In this document: in pieces, positions 45,177 to 52,408 of the stretch
Position numbering within the stretch: the first letter of the stretch is position 1
Layout of the letters: every line of letters begins with the position of its first letter
Assembly: GCA_903873805.1 (NCBI GenBank)
Contig: CAIQQB010000032.1
Coordinates: 1-64,000, forward strand
Length of the DNA stretch: 64,000 nucleotides
Direction: 5' to 3'
From: an uncultured Opitutia bacterium
GTDB taxonomy: Bacteria; Verrucomicrobiota; Verrucomicrobiia; Opitutales; Opitutaceae
The notes under the pieces: generated by a model
Databases searched by the model: none
What the model saw: only the letters and a program-made list of their open reading frames with translations
What the model was told of the DNA's origin: nothing
Translations under genes and position numbers: made by a program

Positions 45177-47312
45177 TCAGAAGTTCGCCGACACCGCGGG
45201 CGGGCTGCCCGCCGAATGGTTCTCGTCGAGTTCGAGGCGCAGGTAATCGTAGACCACACCAGACGTGATATCGCCGGCAGGCACCGTCAGCGTCATCTCA
45301 TTCTCTCCGGGTTTCAGCAGCGTGGCGTCGAAGGTCTGGACGTATTCGCGCCAGATGCCCTTGTCGGTGTTGTACCGGAGCGCGTTCGTGGAAACCGTGG
45401 CGATGGTCCCCACCGCCTGGCCGTTCACGGCCACGGCCAGATTGCCGCCGTCGGCACCGGCCAGGGCCACTCGCAGCGCGGCCTGACCCTTGCCGTTTTT
45501 GTCGAAGTTGAACTTGATCGTCCAAGTGGTCGCCCGGCCGCGGCCATAGACGCGCCAGGGACCGGTATTGTCAGTCGCCGGATAGACCGCCTGGGACTCC
45601 GCCTTCACCCAGCCGAAGCGCTGGTTGGCCGGATCCTTGGCCTCGGGGTTGACCCAGGCCATGGAGGTCGCGTGCGGCACCTGCTGGAAGAACCAATCCT
45701 TGTGGTAGTCGCTCTTGCCGATGGTGTAGGTGATGTCGTTCGGGAACAGCAACGCGTAGCGCAGGCCCCAGCCCCAGAGCCAGTAGTTGGCGCCGTCGCC
45801 CTTGAAGAACTTGCCACCGGTGCGATCGGGGTAACCGATTTCCCACAGCTGCTTGCCGTAACGCACCGGCTTCCACTCCAGCTTGCCGAGGTCAACCGGC
45901 TTGCCGGCCGCAACCGTGATGTTGGTCTGCGCATATTCACCGAGAACACCCTCGGCGAAGGCGTGCAGCGTGTACGTGCCGGGGCGGACGTTGGCGATGG
46001 AGAACTGGCCGTCGTCCTTACCCTCGGCCCAGAATTGGTAGTAGTTGGCGTCGTGATCCCAGGTGACGAGCTTGCCATTGCCCGAGCGCAGGGCAAACGC
46101 GCCGCCCTCGCCCATGAAATCCGGATGCGTCAGGCCCACCCAGAGATGGGGCAGCTTGGTCGTGGCGGCCTGCGGGTCGTTGAGCGCGAGTTTGCCGGCG
46201 ACAGTGGCGCGACCATCCTTCTGGGGGTAGTCCACACCCTGCACCCAGTCATACGGCCACTGGGTCTGAGTGACCTTGGCCTGGGCCAGAGCGTCGTTGA
46301 ACAGGGCGTTCGCATTGGCCGTCCAGGAGGCGGGAATCGTGGGGTTGCCTGCGGTGGCCGCAAGGGTGTCGAGCTCGGTTTGGGTCGGGGTCACCGGATT
46401 CTCCAGCGTATTGTAATAAACGAAGATCGGGCCGACCACCTTGTTCCACACCTCGCCCGGCAGGATGTTGCATGCGGCGCCCCCGGCATAATGACCCGAG
46501 GTCCAGTAATCGAGCATCGTGGCCCCCATGTGGCAGACCAGATCAATCCGGGTCGGGCCGCCACCGAGGTATTCGTTGGACGGGTTGATGAACCAGACGC
46601 CGACGTGGTCCTTGATGCTGGACCAGCCGTAGGCGGGCAGCTTGTACATCTCGGCGCAGTAGCTGTACTTGTGCTCAACCGAGTTCTTGTAAATGCCGGT
46701 GCTCAGAATCCGCTGCTCCTTGGCGTGAATCACAACACCCGCGTTCGTGTCCCGGACCGTACACATGGGCATATTGCGATCTCCATCGACTGACAGCCAG
46801 TCGAAGTTGGCGCCGAGCTGGTTGATGAAACGGCTCTCGCCCTCCCCCATCGCGCCGTAGGACGCCGGATGGGAATAGATCGCGTAGGTGTAAAAGCCGC
46901 TGATGCCGCGCTCGAGGGTGTAGCGCACCTCGATGTCCAGGCCCCGGCCTCCCGTGACGCCCTTCACGGCCACTTCGGCGCGCTGACCGCCATTCTTCGA
47001 CGGGTCGATCGTCAGCGATGCCGCCCCATTGGCGGGATACTGCTCCCAGCCCTCCGAACTGCGGTTGAGCGTCTCCTGGCCGTGATAGACCAGCGACGTG
47101 AGTTTGCCATTGCCCTTCTGGACGACCGCCTTGATGAGGCCGTTGTCCAGCGTCCAGGTGGTCCCGCTGTCGGTGACAGCTACGGGGACGTTGACATTGG
47201 GCTTGGCGACGGCCGGCAGCGCGTCGGCGGCGCGCAGCACGGGCGAGAGCAGGACCAGCAGAAGGCCGGCGGCCGATAGACCGCGGAGGCCGAGGGAGCG
47301 GGGAGTTTTCAT
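45177..47312 (-). CDS. rhamnogalacturonan lyase-like PL4 protein, copy 3
   Basis: A third PL4 paralogue, 711 residues, with signal MKTPRSLGLRGLSAAGLLLVLLSPVLRA; a longer frame upstream of this signal was rejected. The catalytic domain opens WTLDNGLIKAVVQK and LVYHGQETLNRSSE. The middle domain has GQFSIANVRPGTYTLHAFAE, and the C-terminal domain KQLWEIGYPDRTGGKFFKGD and DITYTIGKSDYHKDWFFQQV. It is more distant from copies 1 and 2 than they are from each other, and lacks the Gly-rich insertion. It is transcribed alone, 293 bp from the divergent ECF sigma gene, in a gap with no obvious repeats. Pectin cleavage is inferred from the family. Confidence 0.85.
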   Translation of the reverse strand: MKTPRSLGLRGLSAAGLLLVLLSPVLRAADALPAVAKPNVNVPVAVTDSGTTWTLDNGLIKAVVQKGNGKLTSLVYHGQETLNRSSEGWEQYPANGAASLTIDPSKNGGQRAEVAVKGVTGGRGLDIEVRYTLERGISGFYTYAIYSHPASYGAMGEGESRFINQLGANFDWLSVDGDRNMPMCTVRDTNAGVVIHAKEQRILSTGIYKNSVEHKYSYCAEMYKLPAYGWSSIKDHVGVWFINPSNEYLGGGPTRIDLVCHMGATMLDYWTSGHYAGGAACNILPGEVWNKVVGPIFVYYNTLENPVTPTQTELDTLAATAGNPTIPASWTANANALFNDALAQAKVTQTQWPYDWVQGVDYPQKDGRATVAGKLALNDPQAATTKLPHLWVGLTHPDFMGEGGAFALRSGNGKLVTWDHDANYYQFWAEGKDDGQFSIANVRPGTYTLHAFAEGVLGEYAQTNITVAAGKPVDLGKLEWKPVRYGKQLWEIGYPDRTGGKFFKGDGANYWLWGWGLRYALLFPNDITYTIGKSDYHKDWFFQQVPHATSMAWVNPEAKDPANQRFGWVKAESQAVYPATDNTGPWRVYGRGRATTWTIKFNFDKNGKGQAALRVALAGADGGNLAVAVNGQAVGTIATVSTNALRYNTDKGIWREYVQTFDATLLKPGENEMTLTVPAGDITSGVVYDYLRLELDENHSAGSPPAVSANF

Positions 47313-47605
47313 GGGGAAAAGACGGGGCGGCGGGGTGAAGTCTGCCACCGGATAGCGGAGCAACAACGATCCGGCTGGATCGGGATTGTGCCATTTTTCT
47401 GCCGGTAGTGTCAAGATCATCACCGTCGCAGCCGGGAACCAAGCGGTTCGACCGTGAAATGACTTTGGGTGGATGCCCGGGGCTGGATCACCGCGGGGCT
47501 GAAACCAGCACGAATCCAACGAATTTTTACTGGCAGCGATGGCCGCGGCGGATTCTTTTGGCCAGCGGGCCCGCCCAATGCGACTAATGGGGTGAAAGCC
47601 ATCGC

Positions 47606-48181
47606 ATGCCCGACCATCCCCTATCCAAGACGTGGTGCCAGCAAGCCCTCGCGGGCGACCGTGCCGCCGCAGAGGCCCTCGTCCAGCACCATCACCAGCC
47701 GCTCTACGCCTACCTGCGTCGGTTGTGCGGCAACGAGGCCGACGCCTGCGACCTCACCCAGCAGACCTTCAGCAAGGCCTGGCAGTCGCTCGACCTGTTC
47801 CGGGGCGCGTCGGGCGTGTCCACCTGGCTGCACCGCATCGCCTATTGCACCTACGTGGACTGGGTGCGGCGGCAGCGGCCCACCGGAACGATGCCGGACG
47901 GCTGGTGGGAGACCTTGCCCGCAGGGGAACCATCGCCACTGGAGGCGCTGGCGGAGGCGGATCTCGCCCGGCGGCTCTACACTCTCGTCGAACAGCTTGA
48001 CCCCGAATGCCGCCGGGCGGCCGTCCATCTGCACTATTATCAGCACCTGACGCTGGCCGAAACGGCCGAAGTGCTGGCGCTGCCGTTGAGCACCCTCAAA
48101 CACCACTTGAGGTCGGCGGTGGACGACCTGCGGCGCCAGCTCGCCGCTCCGGCCCAGGCCGCCGAACCATTTTCTACCTGA
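47606..48181 (+). CDS. ECF-type sigma factor (sigma-70 family)
   Basis: A 191-residue alternative sigma factor with region 2 (ALVQHHHQPLYAYLRRLCGN, DLTQQTFSKAWQSLDLFRGA, WLHRIAYCTYVDWVRRQRP) and region 4 (LDPECRRAAVHLHYYQHLTL, LPLSTLKHHLRSAVDDLRRQ). It directs RNA polymerase to a small regulon under envelope or nutrient stress. The next gene, 14 bp downstream, encodes a membrane-anchored protein that is probably its partner or anti-sigma. I found no convincing self-type promoter in the upstream gap. It diverges from the third PL4 lyase, which may be a target; that is a guess. Confidence 0.88.
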   Translation: MPDHPLSKTWCQQALAGDRAAAEALVQHHHQPLYAYLRRLCGNEADACDLTQQTFSKAWQSLDLFRGASGVSTWLHRIAYCTYVDWVRRQRPTGTMPDGWWETLPAGEPSPLEALAEADLARRLYTLVEQLDPECRRAAVHLHYYQHLTLAETAEVLALPLSTLKHHLRSAVDDLRRQLAAPAQAAEPFST

Positions 48182-48195
48182 ACCAACGTCACAAC

Positions 48196-49389
48196 ATGAA
48201 CACCGAACTCCCCCTTGAAGAAATTCTCCGTCGCGCCCCGCAACCGTCAGCACCCGCCCGACTGGCCGCCGACCTGCTCGCTGACATCCGACTTCCCGTC
48301 CGAGCTCCGCAACCCGCGCCCCGGCCGCTCTGGCTCCGCCTTTGGCTCCCCGCCACCGGCCTGGCGGGGGCGGCGGCGGTCCTCATCCTGGTCCTGGTTT
48401 TTTCGGGCGCGGGCTCCTCGCGGCTGGTCGCGCAGTCGCTCGAGGCCCTGGCCAAGGTGAAGTCGTTCCATGTGACGGAGCGTATCCGCAGCGGGCCGGG
48501 CAAACCGGTGATCAAGGACAATTCGCTCGGGCCACAAATTTGGCCGAACTATACGACGAGCATCCACCCGGACAATCCGCTGGTCGAAAGCCAGCATTGG
48601 TTCCGCTACGACCCGGCCAATCCCACGCAGGGCCGCACGCGCACCGAGTCCGACCGCCGGGAGAAATGGCAGGCGGGCAACATTGTCCTCGAGGTGGACC
48701 GCCAGACGGGGGCACGGGAAGTGCGGTTGGATTCGAGTGCGACGATGTTTGCCGGCATCGCGGCACCGCTGGTCGGCAGCGCGAACGGGAGCTTCACGGA
48801 GATTGATCCGCGGAAGCTGCCGGATTTTCCGGCGGAGCTGGCCGCCACGGTGAGTGTCAACGAAACCCGGGTGAAGATGGGCGACGAGGTGGAGTTCTTC
48901 CGGGTGTGGGTGGACCGGCAGTCGGGCCTGCCCCTGCGATTCCAGCGCTGGGGCACGGAATGGCCGGAGATCGCGCCGGAGGTGCTGCTGCAGGAATTTG
49001 TGTTCAGCGATTTCGACACGGACTTCCCCGACGCGACCTTCGCGTTTGCGCCGACCGAGGCGGACCTGGCGCCGCTTGGTCTTACGACAACTCAGCTGGC
49101 GCAGCTGCCCAACAACGCGTTTTCGGTGCGCGTGATCGGCACGGCCGGGCAGGATGTGTCCGGAACACTGACGGACGGCAGCGGCGTGCGCGAAGTGCGG
49201 GGGCGGCTGCCTTTCAGCTTCGTGCATGCGCCGGTGGGAGACGTGAAGCTGGCGTTCCGGATGGTGGACGGGCAAAAGCATAACTTCGGCGCGGTGATCA
49301 ACGGCAACAGCATGGAAACCGTGACCGCGCGGATCAGCGGAGAAGTCTACGTGACCAAAGGCGGCGGCGTATCGTTGGCGGGCCGTTGA
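48196..49389 (+). CDS. membrane-anchored LolA-like protein, candidate anti-sigma partner
   Basis: A 397-residue single-span protein: a short cytoplasmic N-terminus (NTELPLEEILRRAPQPSAPA, then LAADLLADIRLP), a span at about 54-70 (ATGLAGAAAVLILVLVFSG), and a large periplasmic domain starting RLVAQSLEALAKVKSFHVTE. The latter resembles the LolA/DUF2092-like fold also seen in the protease fusion at 32656. The N-terminal stretch is the size of a small anti-sigma domain but lacks the HxxxCxxC zinc motif. Position right after the ECF gene argues for regulation of that factor. Not confirmed. Confidence 0.65.
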   Translation: MNTELPLEEILRRAPQPSAPARLAADLLADIRLPVRAPQPAPRPLWLRLWLPATGLAGAAAVLILVLVFSGAGSSRLVAQSLEALAKVKSFHVTERIRSGPGKPVIKDNSLGPQIWPNYTTSIHPDNPLVESQHWFRYDPANPTQGRTRTESDRREKWQAGNIVLEVDRQTGAREVRLDSSATMFAGIAAPLVGSANGSFTEIDPRKLPDFPAELAATVSVNETRVKMGDEVEFFRVWVDRQSGLPLRFQRWGTEWPEIAPEVLLQEFVFSDFDTDFPDATFAFAPTEADLAPLGLTTTQLAQLPNNAFSVRVIGTAGQDVSGTLTDGSGVREVRGRLPFSFVHAPVGDVKLAFRMVDGQKHNFGAVINGNSMETVTARISGEVYVTKGGGVSLAGR

Positions 49390-49638
49390 GCGGGGATGGA
49401 CGCAACACCCTGCAGCTGCGTTGCAAACCCGGCCAGTAATGGCCGACAGATGCGCCACGGACGGGAAAGCCGATATGGAGACGGCATGCTTGCTCATTCT
49501 CTGCGTATGGCTTAGGCAAGAGCCTGAGCAGGCCGGTTCCCGTCCTGGCACGGCCCCGGGAGATGCTCGCATTTTGCCGAAAATGATGGCACCTTTCCGG
49601 GTGATCCGCGGTCAAAGCGAGATCATCAACCTGCTCCC

Positions 49639-50241
49639 ATGAAATCCACCATCTCCACCCTGTTGCTCGGCGCCGTCATCCTGACCGGCGACGTGTTTGC
49701 CCAGTCGGGCGCACCCGCGGTCATACCCGCCCCGGCCGCCCCGGCCCCCGAAGCCGCCCCCAACCGCATCGTCTACGCCCCCCGCCTGCCGCGACCGGCC
49801 GAGCTGGTCGGCGTCGCCAACGCCCAGGGGCGCACCGTCGAGAAAATGGAGCAGACCAGCTATCAGATCACCGCCACCTACAAGGATGCCGCCGGCCATA
49901 CGGAAACCGTCGCCTACCTGCTGCTCCCGGATGGCGCGAGCCTGCCTGCTCCCTCGGTCAGCCCAACCGCGCCAGTGACCGCGGCCCCTGCTCTGCCCCC
50001 GCCTCCACCGCCGGCCGCACCAGCGGCTCCGCCGCCCCCGCCGACGGCGTACCAGCCGGCTCCTCCGACGGTGATCTACCAGTCGGTGCCCACCCAGGTC
50101 ATCTACTACGACACCTACCCGTCGCGTTACTACTACCCGGGATATGACTATTACTATCCCTACGGCCTCGCCATCGGCCTCGGCATCGGATTTCACGACG
50201 GTTTCCGCGGCGGCTTTTTTCGGGGCGGCTTTCGCCGTTGA
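49639..50241 (+). CDS. exported Pro-rich protein with Tyr/Gly C-terminus, unknown
   Basis: A 200-residue protein with a signal peptide (MKSTISTLLLGAVILTGDVFA), an Ala/Pro-rich body with polyproline (ALPPPPPPAAPAAPPPPPTA), and an unusual Tyr/Gly-rich end (YYYPGYDYYYPYGLAIGLGI, then FRGGFFRGGFRR). No family is recognised. It precedes a glycine-zipper lipoprotein by 34 bp, and the two share Pro-rich composition; they may form an envelope pair. The preceding 249-bp gap holds a TGGCAC at 49587 but no acceptable sigma-54 -12 element. Confidence 0.6.
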   Translation: MKSTISTLLLGAVILTGDVFAQSGAPAVIPAPAAPAPEAAPNRIVYAPRLPRPAELVGVANAQGRTVEKMEQTSYQITATYKDAAGHTETVAYLLLPDGASLPAPSVSPTAPVTAAPALPPPPPPAAPAAPPPPPTAYQPAPPTVIYQSVPTQVIYYDTYPSRYYYPGYDYYYPYGLAIGLGIGFHDGFRGGFFRGGFRR

Positions 50242-50275
50242 GACTCTGGGTTAAACGACTGTTTCATTACCCGCC

Positions 50276-50821
50276 ATGATCCGATCAACAGTGATTGTTT
50301 CCACCTTGGCCGTGTCCGCGCTCCTCACCGGATGCGTGGGCGTCGGCCCCAACACCCAGCAGGGAGCCGTCGCCGGCGGTGCCCTCGGCGCACTGGCCGG
50401 CGCCATCATCGGTCACAACAGCCGCGGCGGGGACACCCTCGGCGGCGCGCTGCTGGGCGGCACGGTGGGTGCCATCGCGGGCGGCACGCTGGGCAACAGC
50501 GTCGACAACCAGCGGGGTACGCTCTACCCGGCGCCCGGCCCGAGGGCCTACCGCCGCGTCGTCTACGAGGAGGTTCCGCCGCCACCCCCGCCCCTGCCTC
50601 CGCCGGCCCCGCCGCCCCCGCCTGCCGGCATTGAAACTGTCCCGGCTCCTCCGACCCCCGATGCACTCTGGGTGCCCGGATACTGGTCCTTCGACGGCGC
50701 CACCAACGCCTGGATCTCGGGGCATTGGGAGGTTCCGCCGGCGAATGCGACCACCTTCGTGGCCGCCCACTGGGAATTCCAAGGCGACCGTTACCTGTTT
50801 GTGCGCAGCTACTGGCGCTGA
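50276..50821 (+). CDS. glycine-zipper lipoprotein with YXWGXW-like repeats
   Basis: A 181-residue lipoprotein: lipobox LLTGC with acylated Cys about residue 20. A glycine-zipper membrane region follows (GAVAGGALGALAGAIIGHNS, GGALLGGTVGAIAGGTLGNS), like the outer-membrane 2TM glycine-zipper proteins SlyB/OmpA-linker types. Then come a Pro-rich stretch and C-terminal aromatic repeats (WVPGYWSFDGATNAWISGHW, AHWEFQGDRYLFVRSYW) of the YXWGXW type. Exact function is unknown; an envelope-structure role is likely. Confidence 0.75.
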   Translation: MIRSTVIVSTLAVSALLTGCVGVGPNTQQGAVAGGALGALAGAIIGHNSRGGDTLGGALLGGTVGAIAGGTLGNSVDNQRGTLYPAPGPRAYRRVVYEEVPPPPPPLPPPAPPPPPAGIETVPAPPTPDALWVPGYWSFDGATNAWISGHWEVPPANATTFVAAHWEFQGDRYLFVRSYWR

Positions 50822-50860
50822 CCGGTCGGACAATTCAGACTCACGCCCGGTCCGGCCGGA

Positions 50861-52408
50861 TCATTCGGCCGGTACGCCGTCCTCAAGCCGGTATTCGTTC
50901 AGCTTATTCCGCAAAGTGCGAATGGAGATGCCGAGCAGTTCCGCGGCCTTCGTGCGGTTGCCCCGGGAAGCGACCAGCGTGTCCAAAATCGCCTTTTTCT
51001 CGATTTCGTTCAACGGTAGCAGGCCGGGTTTGGGCGTTTCCGCCGCCACCATCTCGGCCGGCAAGGCGGGGGCCGCCACCGGCTCCGGTGACGCCAGCAC
51101 CGGCAGGATCGGCGGAGCCGGAGGCGGCGCTACGGGGACGAACACGGCGGGAGGCGGGGGGGCGGCTGGGGTGAACGGCTGGCGGGAAATATCCTCCAGC
51201 ACTCCGGAGTGGGCGACCTGCCGGCCCGGTTCGGTGCGCGCCAACTTCGGCAGGTTGAGGGCCGCGGTGGTGACCGGCCGGTGGTCCTCCGACAGGATGA
51301 CGGCGCGCTCAATCGTGTTCTGCAATTCGCGCACGTTGCCCGGCCAAGGGTAGTTGCGCAACGCTTCGAGGGCATGGTCGGTGAAGCCCGCGAGCTTGAG
51401 TCCGTGCTTGCGGGCAAACCGCTTCAGGAACGATTCGGACAGATGCTCGATGTCCTCGGGGCGTTCCCGCAGCGGCGGCACCTCGACCGGAAACACGTTC
51501 AGCCGGTAGAACAGGTCGGAGCGGAACAGCCCCCGCGCCACGAAATCCTGCAGGTCGCGGTTGGAGGTGGCGAGGATGCGCACGTTGACCTTGATGGTCT
51601 TGGAGCCGCCGACGCGCTCGAACTCCCGCTCCTGCAGCACGCGGAGCAGCTTGGCCTGGAGATTGAGGGGCAGCTCGCTCACCTCGTCGAGCAGCAGCGT
51701 GCCACGGTTGGCCAGCTCGAACCGGCCTTCGCGCCGCTCGGTCGCCCCCGTGAAAGAGCCTTTCTCATGCCCGAAGAGTTCGCTCTCGATCAGCTGTTCG
51801 GACAGGGCCGCGCAGTTGACCTTGATGTAGGGTTCGGCGCGCCGCGGGGAGTTGCGAAAAATCTCCTGCGCCACCATCTCCTTGCCGGAACCGTTCTCAC
51901 CCGTGATCAGCACCGTGGCGTCGGTCGGTGCCACGCGCTCGACCAGCTGCCGGGTGCGGAGCATGGCGGCGCTGCGCCCGAGCATCTGTTCGCCATCGCT
52001 GCCGGTGCGTTCGCTGAAGTAGCGGTTGACCTTGATGAGCTGGCTGTAGTTGTCGGCCTTGCGCAGGATGATGTCGATCTGCGTGACCTCAAAGGGCTTG
52101 ATCAGGTAGTCAAAGGCGCCCGCCCGCATGCAGTTCACTGCGCTCGTGATGGAGCCGTAGCCGGTCATCATGACCACAAGGGGGTGCGTGGGCAGGGCCA
52201 TCACCTGCTCGAGAAACCGCTGGCCGTCGCCGTCGGGCAGGCGCACGTCGAGCAGGATCAGGTCGAAGGTATCCTTGCCCAGGAGGCCGTCGGCCGCCGC
52301 CAGCGTGTCCACCCCGACGACCTGGATCTTGCGGCTGCGCAGGATCTCCTCCAACGAACGCCGGACGAGTGCCTCGTCGTCAACCACCAGAATGCGTTCA
52401 AGGGACAT
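50861..52408 (-). CDS. NtrC-family sigma-54 activator, candidate flagellar regulator
   Basis: A 515-residue response regulator. The receiver domain has phospho-Asp54 ([13 protein letters not shown]). The AAA+ domain has Walker A GENGSGKE, the sigma-54 contact loop as GSFTGA ([20 protein letters not shown]) and Walker [14 protein letters not shown] Pro/Ala linker of about 75 residues precedes the Fis-type helix-turn-helix ([20 protein letters not shown]). The GSFTGA loop is an accepted variant of GAFTGA. It lies at the edge of the motility block, as FlrC/FlbD regulators do. Start [17 protein letters not shown] chosen over a longer frame. No sigma-54 gene is in view. The hybrid kinase at 57230 could be its partner. 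Confidence 0.88.

Follow-up and report, generated by a model that had tools for sequence, protein, structure and literature searches.

In the window analysed here (the whole stretch of DNA, 64,000 nucleotides) a gene for an ECF sigma factor is followed directly by a gene for a membrane protein, which raises the question of whether the second protein restrains the first and what kind of signal it would read. Both the ECF sigma factor and its adjoining membrane partner, as proposed in the initial annotation, were confirmed. The sigma factor (47606..48181, + strand, 191 aa) consists of sigma2 and sigma4 domains only, both above the Pfam cut-off (Sigma70_r2, E 2.7e-16; Sigma70_r4_2, E 5.4e-7), which places it among the ECF factors, and it was included in a phylogenetic tree together with 12 relatives. 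The partner gene (48196..49389, + strand, 397 aa) begins 14 nt past the sigma stop, and codon usage favours the coding status of both genes. The ATG at 48196 was selected as the start of the partner, and not the first start of the long open reading frame at 48007, because the homologues have their starts at the corresponding position, 11-14 nt past the stop of their sigma gene. We consider it likely that the pair forms a one-operon switch in which the partner acts as an anti-sigma factor that crosses the membrane once and carries a LolA-like envelope sensor.

Whole-protein searches that covered 95 relatives, 252 genomes from the family and 387 from the phylum identified no full-length homologue of the partner beyond the window. 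When only the outer part of the protein was used as query, at a loose threshold, 236 genomes of the class yielded two full-length homologues (36% and 33% identity), both encoded behind a sigma factor 51-52% identical to that of the window, and a profile of the window partner and these two recovered two more full-length copies (all five being termed type A) among 50 genomes of one family. In all five type A pairs the partner comes 11-14 nt after the sigma gene, the gap being 14 nt in the window and 11-13 nt in the other four. The search for the pair in relatives, which had been proposed as a check, therefore found it conserved as a unit, with 5/5 full-length partners placed after closely related sigma factors. 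Single-sequence scans of the genome_contigs and viral_contigs collections confirmed no close relative, and a profile scan of genome_contigs recovered just one of the known type A copies. When 100 genomes of the family were searched with the sigma factor, only sigma factors of ~40% identity were obtained, and the next gene of the four that were examined encodes a small partner. The full-length type A partner is thus real but rare and patchy, being present in 1 of the 252 genomes of the window's family, namely the window's own. This rarity, together with the lack of a close relative in the single-sequence scan of genome_contigs, is what would be expected of a chance or lineage-specific neighbourhood without a functional link; the pairs are nevertheless found in three genome groups (f1, f112, and f114) with a near-constant gap and one promoter, which makes such a coincidence highly improbable. 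A gene remnant corresponding to the last 60 residues of a type A partner was detected in a different genus within the window's family (L054 in genome G049, about 2133-2324, and L010:1501-1692); it is 55% identical, contains one internal stop and lies beside a metallophosphoesterase-like gene, and no other portion of the partner gene was located there.

The operon is preceded by an ECF-type promoter, TTGGCCA-N16-CGACTAA (47558..47587, + strand), and the same element, described by the expression TG[GT]C[CT][AG]-N16-CGAC[TC][ACT]A, lies immediately ahead of the sigma start in 13/13 members of the sigma factor clade described below. The expression was found once per stretch in the 13 stretches searched (145,671 bases in total). 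Since it was derived from the same 13 sites, two controls matter. A matrix from which the window site had been left out still ranked that site first in the window (25.0 vs 12.9 bits), and in the whole 3.78-Mb genome it was the sole match with 0 or 1 mismatch, while allowing up to 2 mismatches gave 16 matches vs 29 for the pattern read backwards. Other spacers (14, 15, 17, and 18) gave no match within the window. The circuit appears to be autoregulated with a very small regulon, because its own site is the only match in the genome with 0 or 1 mismatch, and at spacer 16 the operon itself would be the sole evident target of the sigma factor. Since this promoter seems to be unique in the genome, a reporter under its control would give a direct readout of the sensor, and the ligand question would become testable.

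The divergent polysaccharide lyase family 4 (PL4) gene had been suggested as a target. The gene is real (45177..47312, - strand, with Pfam PL4 domains), and it is not an evident target: no sigma motif was found on the PL4 side, where a sigma-70-like promoter, TTGACA-N18-CACAAT, lies upstream of the gene instead (47414-47385, minus strand), and the gene was rejected as a candidate. Downstream of the operon the + strand encodes two small exported proteins, one proline-rich and without a Pfam match (49639-50241) and one with Gly-zipper and WXXGXW motifs (50276-50821). No Rfam matches were obtained across 47200-50900 and no terminators were found on the + strand between 47300 and 50300. Transcription could possibly run on from the sigma operon into both genes, because neither a promoter nor a terminator was found ahead of them.

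The partner was correctly described at the outset as having a short cytoplasmic region and one span, the former comprising residues 1-50 (48196..48345, + strand) and the latter a hydrophobic segment at about residues 51-71 (48346..48408, + strand), as judged by the sequence and by hydropathy in the homologues. The cytoplasmic N-terminus, which is the probable sigma-binding segment, carries the motif MN..LE..LR.AP.P.PP..L...L..I.L and is shared with the type B partners (see below) and with small ECF-adjacent membrane proteins. Two short helices were predicted at residues 7-13 and 19-29 by a single-sequence model of low confidence (pLDDT 37.9); as a structure model of the partner it was too poor and was set aside. 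The observation that the partner lacks HxxxCxxC also held, as the protein has zero cysteines, and by this motif it does not belong to the zinc anti-sigma (ZAS) proteins. HxxxCxxC was likewise absent from the N-terminal 90 residues of the 19/19 other related or N-terminally similar partners that were screened, and it was found in 0/12 of the genes next downstream of the sigma genes listed for the window's genome. According to passages in PMC7406223, ~44% of class I anti-sigma domains are without the zinc motif, and RseA and RskA are independent of it. The absence of the motif is ordinary, and the idea that it marks a new class of anti-sigma factor was abandoned.

Profile searches spoke against an anti-sigma assignment, as all scores stayed below the curated thresholds. 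No Pfam model matched the partner above its cut-off, with no anti-sigma match at E <= 5, and no anti-sigma model of NCBIfam or Pfam reached its own cut-off in the partners. The 'anti-sigma factor' model NF052375 matched the N-terminal region of 4/5 type A partners (E 0.43, 0.015, 0.036, and 0.00029; 10.5 to 20.9 bits against a cut-off of 100 bits) and gave no match in the fifth, and an anti-sigma match to NF038083 (E 0.0055) was also below the cut-off. Sequence searches of the PDB with the partner returned nothing significant or credible, and a profile of the N-terminus found no anti-sigma chain and no CnrY chain among its PDB sequence matches.

Evidence in favour came from the proteins that share this N-terminus. 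At E <= 1e-3 the partner profile found 17 matches other than the query sequences (in sets of 387, 50, and 5 genomes), comprising 2 full-length proteins and 15 that match in the N-terminus and span alone, namely 8 larger proteins (type B) and 7 small membrane proteins. Fifteen of the 17 are encoded directly downstream of an ECF gene. In one other (genome G401; L137:2549-3967, - strand) a one-span small protein is followed by Metal_resist (PF13801) and an ECF factor, the same order as in CnrY-CnrX-CnrH, and for the last (G579) no sigma gene was found within ~4 kb. Two near-identical 188-residue ECF partners from two f114 genomes (L143:3099-3665 and L146:2919-3485) share the N-terminal motif and adjoin sigma factors of another branch. 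The outer part of the type B partners (L140, L141, L142, L144, L145, L147, L148, and L149) consists of a coiled region and a pseudopilin-like head (CVNNLKQLGLAVR ... HGHV.LCDGSVQ). The three type B proteins that were scanned gave weak matches to DUF1559 (3/3) and H-X9-DG (2/3), and a profile of the eight type B tails matched two nearby pseudopilins (20.2 and 15.9 bits). The eight type B partners are possible anti-sigma factors that would read secretion or pilus assembly. A pseudopilin gene is also found near two type A pairs (L108:5011-5826 and L139:5565-6326, both - strand); such genes may just be common in these genomes.

In the phylogenetic analysis of 33 ECF factors (L134 contributed no sequence, as no sigma factor was found there) the 5 type A and 8 type B sigma factors share a common ancestry in one clade (support 100/99), within which types A (97/88) and B (100/98) are each separate. 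The partners of the two types are 36% identical over the first 36 residues and 20% over residues 37-95, and their outer parts have no homology (hhalign prob 0.1). The distances among the sigma factors and among the N-termini correlate (r 0.74), with 0/2000 permutations reaching as high a value. The strongest argument for the N-terminus as the sigma-binding segment is that this segment, unlike the outer part, travels with the sigma factor. We tentatively suggest, as a possibility that deserves attention, that within one ECF clade the short zinc-free anti-sigma segment may act as a socket for exchangeable periplasmic sensors, a LolA/RseB-like lipid sensor in type A or a pseudopilin-like head in type B; if true, lipid/lipoprotein traffic and pilus/type II secretion assembly would be read directly by one anti-sigma family. 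The exchange of sensors within one sigma clade would also serve as a natural experiment, showing which portion of an anti-sigma factor governs binding and which governs the signal.

Conserved pairing cannot tell an inhibitor from an activator, and on this point it would fit equally well that the partner is an activating receptor in the manner of the co-activator FecR, with a cytoplasmic segment that is needed for sigma activity and a signal that switches the partner on. The promoter, the sensor and the correlated distances are compatible with this as well. No FecR domain was detected by Pfam at E <= 5, however, the N-terminus resembles that of small ECF-adjacent membrane proteins, one of which is in the CnrY position, and FecR has a far longer N-terminus than the partner. 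An activating receptor therefore appears unlikely, and an anti-sigma factor is preferred.

The outer part of the partner was modelled with AlphaFold2 (residues 72-397) from a two-row alignment, and fine detail of this model is not trustworthy given its mean pLDDT of 54.4 and pTM of 0.48. The fold itself was nevertheless recognized. All 17 Foldseek matches at E <= 0.001 were LolA, LppX, LprG, RseB, MucB or LolA-superfamily chains (LolA, E 2.3e-6; RseB, 5.8e-5; LppX, 1.5e-4), and VIA-align gave Z scores of 12.7 for LprG, 12.4 for LppX and 11.2 for RseB. When the five type A sensors were aligned as a profile by hhalign to 28 PF17131 proteins (28/30 LolA_like loci, L158 and L163 being left out as they had no usable frame), the score was 38.5; the highest value reached was 17.6 when the target columns were shuffled 100 times and 23.5 when the query was shuffled as often. 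Because Foldseek, VIA-align, and the independent hhalign comparison agree, the initial term 'LolA-like' is right as regards the fold of residues 72 to ~300 (48409..49095, + strand), a half-barrel of the LolA superfamily in a model of modest confidence, while the Pfam families LolA, LolA_like, and MucB_RseB gave no match at E <= 5 and thus no curated LolA-type cut-off was reached. The C-terminal ~90 residues (about residues 305-397; 49108..49386, + strand), which the initial annotation did not describe, form a separate small beta-rich part that is conserved in type A according to the alignment, contains strands in the model, has no known match and is barely touched by the fold comparisons.

By analogy with RseB, LprG, and LolA, which have this fold in common, the LolA-like part could possibly sense a lipid or lipoprotein. 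The fold, and the position of the partner gene behind the sigma factor's own promoter, could also point to a membrane-anchored carrier of envelope lipids or lipoproteins that is the target of the sigma factor rather than its regulator. A carrier is difficult to reconcile with the eight pairs in which the outer part is exchanged for an unrelated pseudopilin-like one and the N-terminus and the pairing are kept, and we regard this explanation as quite improbable.

The best reading of the partner is a short (~50 residues) zinc-free membrane anti-sigma factor, probably of two helices, with exchangeable sensors. The pairing, the descent of the 13 sigma factors from one ancestor, the common N-terminus with exchanged outer parts, the LolA-like fold and the promoter are established computationally; for binding, inhibition, ligand, and release we infer the following course of events. 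The ~50-residue zinc-free cytoplasmic segment would bind and silence the adjacent ECF sigma factor and hold it at the membrane, with its two short helices serving in the way that the two of CnrY do, or helices 1 and 4 in class I domains; passages in PMC7406223 and PMC4598750 describe the two helices of CnrY as enough to hold an ECF factor. The periplasmic half-barrel would sense an envelope signal, most plausibly a lipid, a lipoprotein or another acylated molecule. Passages in PMC4598750 and PMC7400510 describe RseB and MucB, whose fold is the same, as controlling anti-sigma cleavage in response to lipopolysaccharide or lipid A. Signal binding would free the sigma factor, either via a conformational change or by exposing the partner to proteolysis, and the freed sigma factor would transcribe its own operon from TTGGCCA-N16-CGACTAA.

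In the literature searched no title or abstract opening described an anti-sigma factor that carries a fused domain of LolA-like or pseudopilin-like type. As far as this search shows, both the joining of a short membrane anti-sigma segment and a LolA-like sensor in a single chain and the exchange of this sensor for a pseudopilin-like one within the same sigma clade are new. Among known systems, the class I anti-sigma factors (RskA, ChrR, RsiW) are also ECF partners encoded beside the sigma gene, and the pre-membrane region of the window partner shows a weak alignment to the same region of a 280-aa ECF partner from genome G276, which we take to be RskA-like; the window partner differs in that it appears to have little room for a four-helix domain and has no HxxxCxxC. 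The class II system CnrY/CnrX/CnrH has a similarly short zinc-free cytoplasmic segment, and the profile matches the gene in the CnrY position in G401, but CnrX is a separate metal sensor, whereas the window partner has a fused LolA-like domain instead. LppX, LprG, and LolA share the fold of the outer domain; they are carriers that are not joined to a sigma-binding segment, and the window partner has no Pfam LolA-type match. The RseA/RseB and MucA/MucB systems of sigma-E and AlgU combine an ECF sigma factor, a zinc-free membrane anti-sigma factor and a LolA-like lipid-responsive periplasmic sensor, as is proposed for the window pair, and RseB was among the top fold matches of the window sensor (VIA-align Z 11.2). 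They differ in that RseB and MucB are separate periplasmic proteins, whereas in the window the sensor and the membrane span belong to one chain, and in the cytoplasmic part of the window partner, which unlike that of RseA and MucA is ~50 residues long. The window version may be likened to RseA plus RseB in one chain; if true, a single-chain RseA/RseB would sense the lipid/lipoprotein state of the envelope in bacteria whose envelope stress regulation has been little studied.
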